From Sordariomycetes sp. S80-01Y (Eukaryota; Ascomycota; Sordariomycetes), in contig JAXQJY010000032.1 in the NCBI GenBank assembly GCA_037042185.1, positions 3,162,001 through 3,226,000 of the forward strand: a DNA stretch of 64,000 nt, read 5' to 3'. Under the pieces are notes generated by a model, which saw nothing but the letters and a program-made list of their open reading frames with translations, ran no database searches and had not been told where the DNA came from. Position 1 is the first letter of the stretch, and each line of letters starts with the position of its first letter. Shown one piece after another: positions 2,927 through 61,754 of this stretch. The position numbers were made by a program, and so were the translations under genes.

Positions 2927-4756
2927 ATGCCTTCGACATTGGGAAAGAGGTCTCGCGCTGCTCTTGCAGACGGTCAGTCGACTCAAGTGGTCTGCAGCGT
3001 CGCATCATCTAACGCGTCTACAGTCGATGTTCCTCAAACTCCTAGTCGTAGGACGCGTCGCACAACCAAACCTGTCGCCTACGATGATGCCGAGAATGTC
3101 GATCCCGAGCTCGACACCGAAGTCCTCGATGTCCTTGAGGAGCTGCCTAACAAGCGCCAAAAGACACAGGCAAGGGTTCCCGTCACGCCCTCGACCCCCC
3201 GTCACCGCGATGTCCTCTCTAGCACTCCGACCAGCACGCCACGGCACGCAGTTATGTCGGCCGGCAAGCTCTTCAAGCGGCTAACGCCCTCGTCGCCCTT
3301 GTCGCCTTCGACAATTCAAACCGTTTACCACTCCGCGCGTCAACTGTTTGCCCATGGCCAGCAAGGAGAGCTGATTGGAAGGGAAGAGGAGAGGCACCAG
3401 CTGACAACCTTTTTGAACCGATGCTCGCCCGAGTCCAGGACGCAAAGCGGGTGTCTGTACGTCAGCGGCCCCCCAGGAACTGGCAAGAGTGCCATGATCA
3501 CCGAGACTCTGCAGCAGTACGAGAAGACGGATGGCGTTCGCTCTGCGTACGTCAACTGCATGAGCATCAAGTCCTCCAAGGACCTCTACAACACTCTGCT
3601 CGGTGCTTTGGGAGAGGGCGAAGATCACTCTGAGGCGGACGCCATGGCGACCCTGCAAGATGCCTTCTGCTCCAAGAAGTCCGCCACGGAGACGACGTAT
3701 CTGGTGACTCTTGATGAGATCGACCACATCCTGACCATGGGATTGGAGAGCTTGTATCGGCTTTTCGAGTGGTCTCTCCAAAAGCCCTCGCGTCTGGTAC
3801 TGGTCGGCATCGCCAATGCCCTCGATCTGACAGACCGCTTTCTACCCAGACTCAAGGCGAAGAACCTGAAGCCCGAGCTTCTGCCCTTTCTTCCGTACAA
3901 CGCGGCCCAGATTAAGAACATCATCACCACCCGACTCAAGTCCTTGATGCCCGCGGGCAACGACAGCTACGTCCCCTTCATCCATCCGGCTGCCATCGAG
4001 CTCTGCTCCCGCAAGGTTTCGAGCCAGACTGGCGATCTACGCAAGGCTTTCGAGATTTGTCGCCGAGCCCTGGATCTGATCGAGTCTCAGACGAGGTCGA
4101 AGCACGAGGATGAGGCGCGCGAGACGCTACTTCAGGCGACGCCAACGAAGAAGCCGCTCGGGGAGAACGTCAATGGACGTTCTGCCGCTGGCCCGAAGAG
4201 TGTTGTCCAGCTCATGGCTGAGACATTGAAGGCTATGACCCCGGAGACAGCGCCCCGAGCTTCCATCGCGCATCTAAACAAGGTCACGGCGGCGGCCTTC
4301 AGCAACGGCACGAGCCAACGCCTCAAGGCCCTCAATCTGCAGCAGAAGGCTGCCCTCTGCGCACTTGTCGCCTACGAGAAGCGGCTCCGAGAGAAGGCGA
4401 AGTCAGCCGAGGGCACCCCGTCGAAAGCCCAGAGCTTGGCGCCCACGGTCAAGGTTCTCTTCGACAACTATCGGCTGCTATGCACACGCGACTCAGTTCT
4501 CCACCCACTCTCGAGCTTCGAGTTCCGGGAGGTCGTCGGGAGTCTGGAGACCTTGGGGTTAGTCAACGCCGTGGACGGAAAGAACGGCAGCTTCGCCAAC
4601 CCTCAGACACCTAGCAAGAGGGGACGCAAGATGATGGCCAGTGGCGATGACCGACGAATCTCGAGTGCCGCCGGCGAGAAGGACTTGGAGTCGATGGTGG
4701 ACGGACTCGGTGCCAGCATTCTCAGGAGCATCTTGAGCGGCGAGGCTCTGGACTGA
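2927..4756 (+). CDS. cdc6: Cdc6/Cdc18 replication licensing ATPase
   Basis: The frame read straight through encodes 609 residues. It is an AAA+ ATPase with Walker A GPPGTGKS near residue 182, Walker B TLDEID near 262, a sensor-1 region GIANALD near 295, and a C-terminal winged-helix part from about residue 500. Cdc6 loads the MCM2-7 helicase with ORC and Cdt1 in G1. The N-terminus carries several Ser/Thr-Pro sites (TPS, TPR), the usual CDK phosphorylation targets, and basic KR strings. I prefer Cdc6 over Orc1 because there is no BAH domain. The ATG at 2927 was chosen although the frame is open upstream. A 51-nt segment, 2973-3023, has GTCAGT, a CTAAC branch site and TACAG, so it is probably an intron; its removal keeps frame and gives 592 residues. 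Confidence 0.92.
   Translation: MPSTLGKRSRAALADGQSTQVVCSVASSNASTVDVPQTPSRRTRRTTKPVAYDDAENVDPELDTEVLDVLEELPNKRQKTQARVPVTPSTPRHRDVLSSTPTSTPRHAVMSAGKLFKRLTPSSPLSPSTIQTVYHSARQLFAHGQQGELIGREEERHQLTTFLNRCSPESRTQSGCLYVSGPPGTGKSAMITETLQQYEKTDGVRSAYVNCMSIKSSKDLYNTLLGALGEGEDHSEADAMATLQDAFCSKKSATETTYLVTLDEIDHILTMGLESLYRLFEWSLQKPSRLVLVGIANALDLTDRFLPRLKAKNLKPELLPFLPYNAAQIKNIITTRLKSLMPAGNDSYVPFIHPAAIELCSRKVSSQTGDLRKAFEICRRALDLIESQTRSKHEDEARETLLQATPTKKPLGENVNGRSAAGPKSVVQLMAETLKAMTPETAPRASIAHLNKVTAAAFSNGTSQRLKALNLQQKAALCALVAYEKRLREKAKSAEGTPSKAQSLAPTVKVLFDNYRLLCTRDSVLHPLSSFEFREVVGSLETLGLVNAVDGKNGSFANPQTPSKRGRKMMASGDDRRISSAAGEKDLESMVDGLGASILRSILSGEALD
2973..3023 (+). other. Probable stop-free 51-nt intron inside the CDC6 frame
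   Basis: The segment starts GTCAGT, has CTAAC 13 nt before its end and finishes TACAG. At 51 nt it is a multiple of three and has no in-frame stop, so both spliced and retained forms encode full-length protein. An ACGCGT string sits inside it at 3012-3017. Confidence 0.65.
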
Positions 4757-28229: not shown

Positions 28230-29372
28230 TCACGAAACATCTACGCCGCCAGACTTGATGTGCTTCCTGCCCACCGGCTTCTCCCTTGCGCTCGCCGGCA
28301 GCTGCGCCTCCTTGCGAATGTCCTCGGACAGCTTGGCGATGCCCTTGTTGAGTCCTTCCAGCTCGAGGGGATGGCCTGATCCGCTGCCCGCCCAGCGTAT
28401 GCGACAGTGCTGGTCAACCAGATATGTGTAGCCGACCTTGCTGTTCAGCAGACCTATCGACTCTCGGATGTGGTCCGAGATGCCCGCCTGGACGAGGAAG
28501 TACTTGTCCCAGTCCTTCTCCGGGAACTTCTTCCTCAGCGAGCCCATGAACAGCTTGATTAGCCACGCTTTGGCCGAGTTGTCCTCGTAGTTGATGTGGA
28601 CTATCTGCGCAACGTCGCTGTTCTCGGCGACGGCCTCGTGCAGCTCTGGGTTCTCCTTCTTGCCGACAAAGGACTGAACCTGGCCCTCGGCCCACTGGCT
28701 GCTGAAGATGGAAACCACCGAGGCCTTGCCCTCTAGCGTCGGCGTGGTGTCTCGGGGCTTCTTGTCGCTCTTGACGAGGGTCGTCCCGTAGAAGTTAGGG
28801 AAGAAGAGGGAGAGTTCGGCTTTGAAGAGTCGAGGCGGCGAGATGAAGGACTTTCCTTCGTGGAACTTGAGGTTGCCCCAGTCGCGGAAGTAGGGCTTGG
28901 CCATTTGTGCTGTCCTGGATGCCGTCAGTACACGCGCGAGATAGCTTGAATCGAACATGGCTTACAGCTCTGACCGCCGCGCAAGATGCTTGTCGTAGTC
29001 CACAAAGTCATCCCTCTTCTGCCTCAACGTCCTGTTGTCAACCCCGGTGTTCTCTCCCGCTTGCGGCGGGTCCTGCATCCCGATAGGCCGTGGGAGCGGC
29101 TTGGGCGTGAACTCGCCATCGATGCGCTTGCCGTAGCTCCTGGGAGCCTCAATCTCGATGCCCTTGACCTTCTCCTTGGGATTCAACTCGGACCCAGCTG
29201 CAGGCTTCGCAGCCCTCAGCACCGTGCTCGAGAAGGGTCGTCGCCGGGAAGCGCAGACGAGACATAGCAGCGGCTGTTGCCTCGAGGTCGCAAACGCGCC
29301 CAGCCGTCGTGTGGATAGCGCGCCGTTCATTTTCGCGGTGGTCGTTGACGCGGTCGCACGTCGTCGCCTCAA
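28230..29372 (-). CDS. atp10: Mitochondrial F1Fo ATP synthase assembly factor Atp10
   Basis: Two exons (29372-28966, 28914-28230) encode 363 residues, or 349 from an internal Met at 29330. The N-terminus is Arg/Ser/Thr/Ala-rich and fits a mitochondrial presequence. The ATP10 domain begins at about 135 (KPYFRDWGNLKFHEGK, SFISPPRLFK) and continues through YFLVQAGISDHIRESIGLLNSKVGYTYLVDQHCRIRWAGSG, here broken for reference as FLVQAGISDHIR and YTYLVDQHCRIRWAGSG. Atp10 chaperones subunit 6 (Atp6) into the Atp9 ring of the Fo sector in the inner membrane. It is divergent from the BCKDH E2 gene, 283 nt between starts, so two nuclear genes for mitochondrial proteins may share a promoter. Confidence 0.92.
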
Positions 29373-52824: not shown

Positions 52825-54301
52825 TCAGTTCTGCCTCTGTTCCTTGACTGTCCTCTTCACGCCTTCAACAAAAGCTTCCACAGCGAGCCCACCGCCGAGA
52901 GGCATGCTGCCATTCGACATGTAGCCGCCGTTCTCAACCTTGATACCCAGTGCGTCGGCGACGCCAGGGAGACCGCCGTCACGAAGGGCCTGTGTCAACG
53001 TGCCCAGGGCTTGATGAAATTGCGGACTTCTTAACACCTTTTTGAGAAGTGACTTTTTGGCTTCCAATGACAATGAAGCGGCCGCCTCCTCAACAGCCGC
53101 AGCAGATGGTTCATCCTTGCCATTGAAGGCATCTGGATTAGGACCGGATAGAACGATGATTGACCGTGGCAGAAAAGTCAGAAGTGTGTCGATACGTCCT
53201 GGATCGTTGGTAGCAATCACGTCTACCATGGGGACACTGATGGAAGTCGGTAGTAGGTGGCTGAGATGCGGGTATGGTTTGTCCTGAGTTTGTCCTTGAC
53301 CTTGCCCCCCGCTCCCTGCAAGCCCGGGCTGACCCTGTAGCGAGGCTAGAAGATTCCGGACGGCTTCTGATGCATCTGCATTTGCACCAGATGAGGCTCT
53401 AAGAGAAGACATTAGCCTCCGTTTTATACGTGAGCACGGCATATGATGGGCTGATGGGCTTCATCACAGACTGACAAAGCAAGACACTTGTAATACATCT
53501 ATTGTGCCTTTTCTAGACGCCAATTCTTATATTTTGTCGTGCAGTATGCGATGCCCGCGGTCATCATGCAAAGGAAGTTACCTACGCTCGCGCTCCGTCG
53601 GAGCCACCCTCTCTTGACTCTTCGCCTTCGTCTCGGATATCTCCGCCTGTAGCGCCGGCTCCAGCACCACCGCTCCCACTAGGGGGTTGGCGTCGCTGGG
53701 GTTGGGCATCCGCCTCTTCCATATCCTCATCGTCGTCATCGTCTCGGTCGTCGGGGTTGTTTCGGATGCTTTGGAGCTCGCCTTGCACGTCGATCTCCTC
53801 GCCTTGGAGCAAAGAGTTGACCATCTCACCGATCTTGCGATCGCGGTCACTGAAGATTGATGGACTGCTGCCCTGGGGCTTAGACTGGAGCCAAAAGAGG
53901 TAACGATCGGGAGAGCCGCCGAACTTGAGGACGAATACGCGGCCGTTGGTCTTCGCAGATGACTCGGAGCTTTCGTAGGGTACAAATGTGGTGCCGTCCC
54001 CAGGAACCATCACAAGATCCACGTCGGCTTCTTCTAGAGTCTGGGAACGCTTCCGCCAGCAGAAGTGTAGCAAGTCTAATGCTGTCAGCACTTTGCGTCA
54101 TTCTTGTCTTGGGAACTGCGAACGCACCATCGTCGGAGTAGAGGGATATGTAGCCACGCTCTTCTTGAGGCTTGACCTTGTAGGGTTTCGATTCGGTCTA
54201 GATCATCGCAGTCAGATCTGAGAGTAGGCGTGTTGGGGTCGGAAACAAACGTCGAGCTCACACTGGCCGGCCTTGAATGTGATGAGAGGAGACGCAGCCA
54301 T
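52825..54301 (-). CDS. rpn13: Proteasome ubiquitin receptor Rpn13 (ADRM1)
   Basis: Four exons (54301-54251, 54197-54128, 54075-53586, 53398-52825) encode 394 residues. The N-terminal Pru domain (about 1-135: LITFKAGQCELD, RGYISLYSDD, LLHFCWRKR, RVFVLKFGGSPDRYLFWLQSK) binds ubiquitin and Rpn2. An acidic Gly-rich linker follows. The C-terminal DEUBAD domain (about 270-390) would bind and activate the deubiquitinase Uch37; S. cerevisiae Rpn13 lacks it. Intron 1 is best read with a GTTTGT donor and a CTAG acceptor to join CELD to TESKPYKV. Intron 3 is unusually long at 187 nt. Confidence 0.9.
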
Positions 54302-54890: not shown

Positions 54891-55907
54891 ATGGGTTTCA
54901 CTGATCTTCTCACCGACGCTGGAGCTACCAGTATGTTCTGCCGCCGTTGCATTTGAAGGCGCATTTCCGCAGTCAGGACAGACACTGACCGTTGACTCAG
55001 TGCTCAACAGCTGGTTGACCACCCGTTCCTACATCACTGGGTATGTAAAGCGCTCTCTCGCGACTCCTGTTGCCCTCTCCACGATCTTTACATGATGAGA
55101 AACATTGGTCCGTGTTTCAGAGGCGGCTTAAGACCCCGCTACTTGACGAAGCAACAAGCACTCTGTGCACCTCTGATCATGATCGTGAATGGGCTGCCGT
55201 TGTCCTTGATCCTGGAATCCAGGTGTTTGCTAACGCGCGTCATAGCTTCGCTCCTTCGCAGGCCGATGTTGCCGTTTTCAAGGCTCTCAGCTCCAGCCCC
55301 GACGCCGAGAAGTTCCCCCATGCCGCCCGCTGGTACTCTCACATCTCGACCTTCGAGAGCGAGTTCGCCACCCTCCCCGGCGATGCTTCCAAGGCCTTCA
55401 GCGCCTACGGCCCTGAGGCTGGCGACCTGACCCTGAACCCTGCCAAGGCTCCCGAGACGGCTGAGGATGACGACGACGTCGATCTGTTCGGCTCCGATGA
55501 CGAGGAGGAGGATGCTGAGGCTGCCAGGGTTCGCGAGGAGCGTCTGGAGGCCTACCGCAAGAAGAAGGAGAACAAGCCCAAGACCATTGCCAAGTCCGTT
55601 GTCACTATGGATGTCAAGCCTTGGGGTAAGTCTCTGCTGATAACAAAGGGATTAGAATTGGATGCTAACGTTCGCAGACGATGAGACCGATATGGCTGCC
55701 CTTGAGGCCGCTGTCCGCGCCATCGAAAAGGACGGTCTCGTCTGGGGTGCTTCCAAGCTTGTTCCCGTCGGTTTCGGTATCAAGAAGCTCCAGATCAACC
55801 TGGTTGTCGAAGACGAGAAGGTCTCCACTACCGACCTTCAGGAGGAGATCGAGGGACTCGAGGATTACGTCCAGTCCTCTGACGTCGCTGCCATGCAGAA
55901 GCTCTAA
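54891..55907 (+). CDS. Translation elongation factor 1-beta (eEF1B-alpha), GDP/GTP exchange subunit
   Basis: Four exons (54891-54930, 55001-55040, 55246-55625, 55678-55907) encode 229 residues. A GST-like N-terminal segment ([19 protein letters not shown]) with [11 protein letters not shown] is followed by an acidic stretch ([17 protein letters not shown]) and the C-terminal exchange domain ([35 protein letters not shown]), which reloads eEF1A with GTP. Intron 2 (55041-55245, 205 nt) hosts a U18-type snoRNA, as the EFB1 intron does in S. cerevisiae. Confidence 0.95.
55080..55187 (+). ncRNA. snR18: Box C/D snoRNA U18/snR18, intronic
   Basis: Inside eEF1-beta intron 2. Box C ATGATGA (55092-55098) and box D CTGA (55173-55176) are enclosed by a seven-base-pair terminal stem, CACGATC (55080-55086) with GATCGTG (55181-55187). 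The guide TTGGTCCGTGTTTCA (55105-55119) is complementary over 15 nt to the universal LSU rRNA string TGAAACACGGACCAA. Reading CAGA (55118-55121) as box D', the fifth base upstream pairs with the A of AAACACGG, the equivalent of yeast 25S A649, a known snR18 target. A C'-like TGACGA lies at 55144-55149. Mature ends are approximate. Confidence 0.88.
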
Positions 55908-56415: not shown

Positions 56416-57133
56416 ATGTATGGCGATATGGGAATCAAGCTGGTAGGTGTACCTTGATCCTTACTGTGCGCTGCTGATTCGCGTGCGCTAGGTGCAACAC
56501 GCCAAACGGACGCAAAACCTCTCCCACCTCCCATCCTACCAAGCCGAACTTGTCCGCGCCGTGACTCGCGAAGTTCGCGATCTCGATAAAGACGTTTCCG
56601 AGCTTCTCGAACCCTTCCAAGGCTCCTTCGACCCCTCCGCCGATCAAGCTGTCGCGACGACCCTCCTCGTAAACCACCTCTCTATGCGCCGGAATAAGCG
56701 CTGTCTCCTGGCGTACCACCGCGTGCGAACCGATAAGCTGGAAGAGCTGGTATGGAAGGGAGCGGACGTAGTCGATCTCTCCGGGCAGCAGCAGGCCGCG
56801 AGTGATGATCCGACGAGTAGCCTGAGCCCACAGGAAGAGGAGTACGTGAGGCAGTATGGGGATTTGTTGGCGGCATACAAGGGGCAGTGGACGGACATTG
56901 ATCTGACGGGGAGTTTGGAGCCACCAAAGGATTTATTCATCGACGTACGAGTTCTCAAGGATGCGGGCGAGATTCAGACAGAATATGGGTGAGTGCTGCG
57001 TCGGGAAACCTGTCTGAGGCCAATGCTAATCGACTCTAGGGCTATAACTTTGACCAAGAACAGCCAGTTCTATGTTAGGCAAGGTGATGTTGAGAGACTC
57101 ATTGCTCAGGGCTATCTACAGAAACTTAGCTGA
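56416..57133 (+). CDS. psf1: GINS complex subunit Psf1
   Basis: Three exons (56416-56442, 56492-56988, 57040-57133) encode 205 residues. It opens MYGDMGIKLVQHAKRT, the conserved Psf1 start, and the helical A domain contains LVRAVTREVRDLD and HLSMRRNKRCLLAYHRVRTDKLEEL. The small B domain follows a linker (DLFIDVRVLKDAGEI, LTKNSQFYVRQGDVERLI). GINS joins Cdc45 and MCM2-7 into the CMG replicative helicase. The first exon has only nine codons, preceded by an MCB-like palindrome. Confidence 0.92.
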
Positions 57134-58430: not shown

Positions 58431-61400
58431 ATGTCTTCACCAATACCAGGCTTTTCTCCGTGGAGGAGGAGAGCCTCGAGTATCTCTTCAACGCCGGTAG
58501 AGCGGCAACGCTCCGATTCCACAGAGATCCCGAGTTCGCCGCCAGGTCATGATGCGATGTCAATTGGACACCCTAACCGGTTATCGACTTCGATTGGCTC
58601 TTTGCCGGGGCAGAGAGAACCCATACGCTCGTTCATACATGGTTCTGTAAGGGACCGATTAGGTACGGCCGGAGGGAATGGATCACCCGGGTGACTGCTA
58701 ACTCTGATAGCACCCATTGACAGCGTACAAGCTGCAAGAACCGTTCGCGAAGATACCGCCGAGCTGGCAAGCTACTTTCTATCCGACCGAAAGGACAAAG
58801 GTAGCCCTGCGTTTCTAAACCGCGGGAGACCCTCCATCTCGGATGCCTTCGCCACGCCAGAGCCTACCGAGCACGAATCGACGGAGCCGACAACCCGAGA
58901 CCGAGACACGATTCATGAGGTCTCTGAACCTCCGTCTCCGGAGCATGGCGAGTCTGACTCCGAGGAAGAGGGTCCCTCAGCACTGGCGAACATGCTGCGA
59001 AAATCACCTCCCCAATCCGTAACGCCAGAACCGCCGCAGAGAACATCAGAAGCAAAGCCGCCAAGGCCGAAGAAGAGTCGCGAAGAAGAAGAGCGCGTCG
59101 CGCGAGGCGAGACTTCTCGAGCGCCCGTTAAAAGGACATCAGAGCCAGTGCAAGATGCTACGGAGCGTACTCCTCTGCTCAGCGGAGAACCCTCTGAAGG
59201 AGATTCTGCTAGTGAGGATCTCGAGAGTCAGAAAGCTCAGCCGCGGAAGAACTGGTTGGTCGCGACGGCCGATGGATTGCACGATCTTGGACAGCGTGTA
59301 GTTGTCGTCGCGAATCCCAAAAGTTGGAACGCCAAGGCTGTCTGGCAGACGGCCTTTGTTACACCAGCGTCATGTCTGCCTGCGGTATGCGTAGGTCTGC
59401 TGCTAAACATCCTGGATGCGCTGTCGTACGGGATGATTCTATTTCCGCTCGGAAAGCCGATCTTTTCGCACTTGGGCCCCGCTGGCATCTCCATATTCTA
59501 CGTGAGCACGATTGTGTCACAGTTGACGTTCTCCACCGGAAGCATATTCAAGGGCTCAGTCGGCTCAGAACTAATCGAGGTTGTGCCTTTCTTTCACAAT
59601 ATGGCACAGAAAATTACGGATATCGTTGGATCTGAGAACCCAGATGCGGTCATTGCTACGACCATTGTCTCATACTCGATGAGCTCAATGATTACTGGTC
59701 TTGTGTTCTACTTGATGGGCAAGTTCAAGTTTGGCTTCATGGTTGGCTTCATTCCAAGGCACATATTGATTGGGTGCATTGGAGGAGTCGGTTGGTTCCT
59801 GATCGCGACTGGGTTCGAGGTTTCCGCACGCCTTGAGGGCAGCCTCGAGTATGACTTGGACACGCTGCACAAGCTGACCCGGCCAGAGACGCTACCGCAG
59901 TGGATCTTTCCCCTTGTCCTGGCTGTGGTTCTCTTCTATGGCCAAGCAAAGATCAAGTCAAAGTACTTCCTACCGTTGTACATCTTGACGATACCACTGA
60001 TCTTCTATCTCTTCGTTCTGGCTTTAGATGTGCTGGATGCCGACAGCCTGAGGGACAAGGGATGGATCTTCGACGGGCCACCGGCTGATGAGCCATGGTG
60101 GTACTTTTATACCCTTTTCAAATTCAGGCTCGTCCGCTGGGACGCCGTCGCCGAATGTATACCAGCAATGTTCGCCTTGACGTTTTTCGGTATCCTTCAC
60201 GTACCGATCAACGTCCCTGCGCTGGCCCTTCAATGCGGCGAGGACAACGCCGATCTTGACAAGGAACTCCGACTACACGGGTACTCCAATTTTTTGTCTG
60301 GCTGCCTTGGAAGCATCCAGAACTACCTGGTTTACGCCAATACCGTGTTTTTCATGCGCTCTGGTGGCGACACGAGGTTAGCAGGGTACATGCTCGCGGG
60401 CCTGACGTTTGCCGTCATGGTGGTTGGCCCATCTCTTGTGGGCTTCATTCCCGTGATGATGGTGGGAACCTTGATCTTTGATCTTGGGTTCGAGCTGCTG
60501 CTCGAGGCCGTTTGGTTGCCGCGCAAAAAGTTGAAGTTGGCTGAGTACTTGACCGTCATCGCGATCGTCCTCGTCATGGGCATTTACGACTTTGTTATTG
60601 GCATCGGCGTAGGTATCCTGCTCGCCTTTGTCTCCTTGATTGTACAGACTTCGAGGGTGTCAGCCATCCGGGGTACATTTGCCGGCGACACAGTCACGTC
60701 AACCGTTCGACGAAACCCGTCGCAGCACCACTACCTCCAGCGTGTCGGTGGCCAGATCTACATCATGAAGCTCACGGGATACCTCTTCTTCGGCACCATT
60801 GTGAGCGTGGAGGACAAGATCCGGACACTTCTCGATTTCAAGACTTTTGCCGAAAAGCCAATCAAATTCCTCGTTCTCGACCTTTGGTACGTCACCGGAC
60901 TGGACTACTCAGCTGGTGAGGTCTTCAACACAATCAGCCGACTCCTCGACAAGAAGGGCGTCATTTTCGTCCTTAGTGGTGTCGATCCTGAGAGCCAGCT
61001 TGGAAGAAATCTCCGCGCGGTCGGGTTAGGTAACAATGGCATCGAAGTCACCATGCTGCCGGATTTGAACTCAGCTCTTGAAAGCTGCGAGAACGACTTG
61101 CTTAAGACGCTGTACGCTCGCCAAGAAGAGATGAACCAGACGAAGCGCGTCGCAACGACGAGCCTGGACGTGCCCAAGCAGACCGACTCGAGCTTCTCTT
61201 CATTCGAGCCGCCCTTCAACTCACCGCGCCAAACTCACCTTGTCGAAGCTGCCAGCGACGCCTTACAAACAGTAGAGGTGCAGCGCCCGAAGAAGTGGCA
61301 ATCTTTCAAGGAGCCTCTTCGGCTCATGCTGCAGATCTTCCAGGGACTCTCCGACAAGAATGAGGACTTTTGGTTCCAAGCAACGCATTACTTCCAACGC

Positions 61401-61754
61401 CGCGAAGTCCCGGCGGGGACCGTCCTTTTCCGCCGCGGCGAGGAGGCCAACGGCTTCTACCTCGTCGAGCGCGGAATCTTGCGCGTCGAGTACGACCTGC
61501 CTCAGGGCTGGCTTTGCGAAAGCATCATGCCCGGGACGACGTGTGGCGAGTTGCCATTCTTTTCCGAGACGGACAGGACGGCCACAGCGCAAGTCGAGCG
61601 GGATAGCGTGGTTTGGCTGATGGATCGCCATGGCTGGTCGAAGCTGCAGACGGAGGAACCCGAAATCTCAAGGGAATTGCTGAGGGTATCATTGAAGTTG
61701 ACGAGTGAGAGGATGAGCTCGATTACTTCCTACATACTCACGATGGCGGGATGA
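58431..61754 (+). CDS. SulP-STAS transporter with cyclic-nucleotide-binding-like domain (Vsb1/YGR125W type)
   Basis: Two exons (58431-58662, 58711-61754; 48-nt intron) encode 1091 residues. A long phosphorylatable Ser/Pro/Glu-rich cytosolic N-terminus (1-300) precedes a SulP/SLC26-like membrane domain of 10-14 helices (about 300-740; LPAVCVGLLLNILDALSYG, PIFSHLGPAGISIFYVSTI as markers). A STAS domain follows (about 760-880) and then a cNMP-binding-like beta-roll near 960-1060 (FRRGEEANGFYLVERGILRV, CGELPFFSE). This SulP-STAS-cNMP architecture matches yeast YGR125W/Vsb1, implicated in vacuolar basic amino acid storage, rather than plasma-membrane sulfate permeases. Substrate here is unknown. 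Confidence 0.85.

Follow-up and report, generated by a model that had tools for sequence, protein, structure and literature searches.

In Saccharomyces cerevisiae, snR18 sits in the intron of EFB1/TEF5, as stated in passages of PMC3938493 and PMC2705663 and as the original prediction on this DNA had said, and in Candida albicans tiling arrays place snR18 in the EFB1 intron as well (passages of PMC2926782). In the filamentous fungus Neurospora crassa, two intronic U18 homologues of 89 nt, CD46A and CD46B, were identified via northern blot and reverse transcription, with 26S-Am635 as the target (passages of PMC2780460). A table in PMC3511168 counts U18 among the conserved modification sites that Arabidopsis, human and yeast share, at Am660, Am1313 and Am647, respectively, and the same source assigns both RF00093 (SNORD18) and the plant family RF01159 to clan CL00047. 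The yeast snR18 sites are numbered both 647/648 and 649/650 within the passages of PMC3938493. The U18/EFB1 pairing in budding yeasts and a U18 snoRNA in a filamentous fungus are, in other words, already known. No eEF1-beta gene was named as the U18 host of a filamentous fungus in the literature passages covered by a non-exhaustive search, and the passages taken from PMC3596301, PMC12309372, PMC5033589, PMC6171561, PMC4644070 and PMC7994747 hold nothing on a U18 host (PMC5033589: snR189c only).

Based on analyses of a 64-kb stretch of DNA (the whole stretch analysed, hereafter the window), we propose that intron 2 of an eEF1-beta gene encodes a box C/D snoRNA of U18/snR18 type, a reading to which we assign a probability of about 0.95 on the strength of sequence features. 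The original prediction of such an RNA in this intron was right in substance, as the top local Rfam match (SNORD18), the guide, the boxes and the host gene all agree. The features are collected in Table 1.

Table 1 Features of the eEF1-beta gene and of the putative U18-type snoRNA in its second intron (window coordinates).
Feature	Position	Strand	Remarks
eEF1B beta-type (eEF1-beta) host gene	54891..55907	+	exons 54891-54930, 55001-55040, 55246-55625, 55678-55907; 229 aa
Host intron 2, GTATGT...TAG	55041..55245	+	phase 2, after 80 coding nt; from sequence and frame
5' arm of 7-pair stem, CACGATC	55080..55086	+	likely outside the mature RNA
Probable mature snoRNA, about 94 nt	55087..55180	+	ends taken as 4-5 nt beyond the two boxes C and D
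Box C, ATGATGA	55092..55098	+	aligned with AUGAUGA of RF00093
D' antisense guide TTGGTCCGTGTTTCA	55105..55119	+	complements LSU rRNA around yeast A649
Box D', CAGA (variant of CUGA)	55118..55121	+	from sequence
Candidate box C', TTGACGA	55143..55149	+	weak candidate, read from sequence
Box D, CTGA	55173..55176	+	from sequence
3' arm of 7-pair stem, GATCGTG	55181..55187	+	perfect complement of the 5' arm
Probable branch point, CTAAC	55230..55234	+	by consensus; branch A = 55233

The host gene model was derived from splice signals and reading frame. Its four exons join into an open frame of 690 nt including the stop codon, and the 3' splice site TAG at 55243-55245 keeps the reading of exons 2 and 3 joined in frame. 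The predicted product carries the EF-1 guanine nucleotide exchange domain (Pfam EF1_GNE, E 3.2e-34) and an acidic region (Pfam EF-1_beta_acid, E 3.1e-13), and its relatives in the PDB include both beta and delta chains of eEF1, among them yeast eEF1BA (1f60_B, E 1.4e-34), which bears out the eEF1-beta identity claimed for the host. Within the intron, box C lies 51 nt and the likely start of the RNA 46 nt from the intron start, while the branch A follows box D by 57 nt and the intron ends 69 nt beyond box D. For the snoRNAs of N. crassa, a distance of 41-60 nt to the 5' splice site predominates (passages of PMC2780460), which counts in favour of a U18-type snoRNA in eEF1-beta intron 2. A perfect short hairpin, CCTGGAATCCAGG, is also present at 55211-55223 (+), 3' of the snoRNA and 5' of the probable branch point.

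Other genes were noted in the neighbourhood. One long open frame at 58695-61754 (+) combines sulfate permease, STAS and cyclic nucleotide-binding domains, adjoining pieces at 52825-54097 (-) belong to an Rpn13-type proteasome receptor with Pru and UCH-binding domains, and an open frame at 56492-56992 (+) holds a GINS helical-bundle domain of the Sld5 family with a weak PSF1 C-terminal match.

The two boxes that characterize this snoRNA class, box C (RUGAUGA) and box D (CUGA), are both present as had been claimed, in the form of ATGATGA and CTGA. The flanking stem requires a more differentiated view. Its seven pairs, described in the original prediction as a terminal stem, are indeed perfect, but they begin 5 nt outside box C and 4 nt outside box D, and inspection of the flanking nucleotides gave no helix directly adjoining the two boxes. 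Hence, the stem is more likely external, probably serving in processing, with the mature RNA spanning the interval given in Table 1. In snoRNAs without a terminal stem, such an external stem is a device that holds the boxes together. On the 3' side, a small GCAC/GTGC hairpin occupies nucleotides 5' of box D and the C' candidate is weak, and the D side is for these reasons probably without a guide role, so that a single guide, that of D', is likely. Eukaryotic rRNA, sought in viral contigs for comparison with the D-side guide, gave no match there.

The detached stem, the variant D' box CAGA (the variant named in the original prediction) and an Rfam score below threshold could together be taken as signs of a U18-type guide relic, i.e. 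a pseudogene in which the boxes persist although the RNA is no longer made, the terminal stem having decayed and D' having changed. Such decay would, however, have spared box C, box D and the 15-nt guide, which are all intact, and a stem of seven pairs just outside the boxes is rare by chance. Moreover, CAGA also stands behind the same guide core in four archaeal loci (see below), so that this variant need not mean decay. We therefore regard a relic as very improbable.

The rRNA target was defined using letters derived from the DNAzymes directed against yeast 25S A649 in passages of PMC3938493, and the pairing described here is accordingly with the rRNA of yeast rather than that of the host species. 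The guide TTGGTCCGTGTTTCA, the last two of whose 15 nt overlap box D', pairs without interruption with 15 nt of yeast 25S rRNA (positions 643-657), i.e. the claimed LSU rRNA complementarity around A649 is exact. Following the D'+5 rule, U55113, the fifth nucleotide upstream of the CAGA box, faces A649, the adenosine methylated by snR18, again as foreseen. The guide-target duplex reaches -26.7 kcal/mol, as compared to -19.7 kcal/mol for the best among 2000 shuffled guides.

In a local 3-kb Rfam scan, SNORD18 (RF00093) was the top family with 31.3 bits (E 0.0035), in an alignment that joins box C and the guide GGUCCGUGUUUC of the model to the intron RNA, whereas the model has CUGA where the intron RNA has the D' box CAGA, and its second half is skipped. 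The check proposed with the original prediction, a search with Infernal and the SNORD18 model, thus returned the expected family as the best of the local scan, but at a score under the gathering cut-off of 41 bits, and the locus is therefore not filed as a formal RF00093 match. A scan of the 64-kb window at gathering thresholds reported nothing. When permissive settings were applied to the whole window, SNORD18 obtained the most bits (E 0.074), next to a match of snoU82P elsewhere (E 0.067). The latter, a sub-threshold match at 28660-28707 (+) with 23.9 of 42 bits, is probably due to chance, as a clear box C/D frame was not seen by eye. We consider the Rfam model suggestive and not sufficient; the identification rests on the guide, the boxes, the host and the literature together. 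The intron is also one case in which a likely U18 is overlooked when Rfam is applied at gathering level.

The same stretch is also matched by RF01168 (18.6 bits, E 2.8), which might point to a SNORD126-type guide that methylates a neighbouring adenosine instead of A649. This match arises because the guide letters of RF01168 overlap those of the U18-type guide; it is 12.7 bits weaker than that of SNORD18, and the D' box CAGA at 55118 sets the +5 position on A649, making a SNORD126-type function exceedingly unlikely.

How far a U18-type signal could arise by accident was assessed in several ways. With up to two mismatches allowed, the guide 15-mer is matched only once in the window, by a stretch free of mismatches, whereas 15 of 100 window shuffles gave at least one match at this tolerance (mean 0.18). 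Assuming an rRNA length of 3400, exact 15-nt rRNA matches are expected 0.0006 times per 205-nt intron and 0.40 times per whole window, both strands included, and because of the latter value the 15-mer is not decisive by itself. The arrangement of a box C-box D frame with at least seven flanking pairs (contiguous Watson-Crick pairs starting no more than 6 nt from both boxes) occurs once on the plus strand of the window and not at all on the minus strand; first-order Markov sequences gave it about 0.03 times per random window (100 windows, both strands), and of 20,000 random introns a single one contained it. An ordinary intron with a chance resemblance to U18 might be argued for from the shortness of the motifs, the lack of a gathering-level Rfam match and the 0.40 rRNA matches expected per window. 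It would, however, have to bring together in one place the frame with its stem (1/20,000), the exact guide (0.0006 expected) and a host known from yeasts, a coincidence that we find scarcely credible.

Folding of the naked RNA adds little in terms of stability, which is unremarkable for both the snoRNA region (z -1.54) and the whole intron (z -0.75). In the minimum-energy fold, the box C region pairs with sequence 3' of box D, and protein would consequently need to compete with this fold for a kink-turn to form. The outer seven pairs persist in the computed fold when the boxes and the guide are held open. For a U18-type snoRNA of this kind, we envisage the following maturation. The host pre-mRNA would be spliced and the intron debranched, whereupon the flanking 7-pair stem could bring boxes C and D together during assembly of Snu13, Nop56, Nop58 and fibrillarin. 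Exonucleases would then trim the intron RNA to approximately 55087-55180, and the resulting particle would presumably 2'-O-methylate the equivalent of A649.

The guide core was also sought beyond fungi by scanning viral and prokaryote contigs for box C (TGATGA) followed by the core. This gave 16 stretches in viral contigs and at least 116 in prokaryote contigs; as about 194 chance matches are expected for so loose a pattern, most of them are uninformative. CTGA or CAGA stands close behind the guide in 8 of 132 loci among the matches listed (L007, L017, L050, L063, L064, L065, L100 and L106). A compact C-D'-C'-guide-D layout is seen in the Pyrodictiaceae/Pyrodictium loci L050, L063, L064 and L067 and also in L100, with CAGA as the box behind the guide in L050, L063, L064 and L100 and CGGA in L067. 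Such a box is absent in L035 and L045, the two other archaeal records among the matches listed. In L050, positions 3560-3613 resemble a box C/D sRNA gene whose last guide includes GGTCCGTGTTTC, identical to the 12-nt core of the fungal U18, and L063, L064, L067, L100 and L153 (1464-1515) likewise have this core in the last guide of an sRNA-like gene. With a stricter pattern, matches were obtained in 3 of 197 genomes of the class. Three of the 30 genomes of the order contain the guide core and none the exact target; of their loci, L139 coincides with L050, the guide of L153 is followed by CTGA, and L154 has neither CTGA nor CAGA.

The archaeal counterpart of the target is less clear. Scanned with Rfam, the five loci L050, L063, L064, L067 and L100 yielded no gathering-level match, and a forward exact match to the rRNA target was found in none of the 5, 16 or 30 archaeal genomes searched. 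With one mismatch allowed, matches in the 5 genomes occurred only at the level of the reversed-pattern control. A 23S match is absent in 4 of these 5 genomes, and in the fifth (G001) bases 215000-217500, before the recovered part of the 23S gene, read N. Within that recovered part, complete pairing with the guide is seen at C30:217986 when G-U pairs are allowed, and pairing with a single mismatch at C30:218105, so that another 23S target is possible, which speaks against the use of the same site. Judged from these sequences, the site equivalent to A649 may be methylated in archaea too, by descent or convergence, or the guide may serve another 23S position.

As for the history of host and guest, we consider it an even bet that U18 and this eEF1-beta intron have been together since before the split of filamentous and budding ascomycetes, the intron being kept for its guest, and that the guide site is also targeted by some archaea via the same 12-nt core. 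Intron 2 of eEF1-beta follows 80 coding nt in phase 2, and the intron of S. cerevisiae EFB1, behind an exon 1 of 80 coding nt, may sit at the same position. In that case, one and the same intron would have housed U18 from the time at which the two lineages parted. U18 in the eEF1-beta intron fits the view, argued for RPL7 and NOG2 in passages of PMC8476143, that certain introns persist on account of the snoRNA genes inside them.

Compared to the described systems, the putative RNA of eEF1-beta intron 2 has the host gene and the target site in common with snR18 of S. cerevisiae, but passages of PMC3938493 give A649 and C650 for the latter, whereas the D' register in the eEF1-beta intron gives A649 only. 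The C. albicans system combines the same host (EFB1) with the same guest, a likeness that is drawn from the description in passages of PMC2926782. With CD46A and CD46B the RNA shares what appears to be its occurrence in a filamentous fungus, the intronic location, the D' guide and a similar length (89 nt in N. crassa, about 94 nt here as judged from the likely ends); N. crassa differs in having two copies, whose hosts are not named in the passages of PMC2780460. eEF1-beta intron 2 hence appears to unite U18 and an eEF1-beta host in an apparently filamentous fungus, a combination that we do not claim to be unpublished. It extends a known snoRNA-host pairing to this apparent filamentous fungus and represents an ordinary example of a known arrangement.
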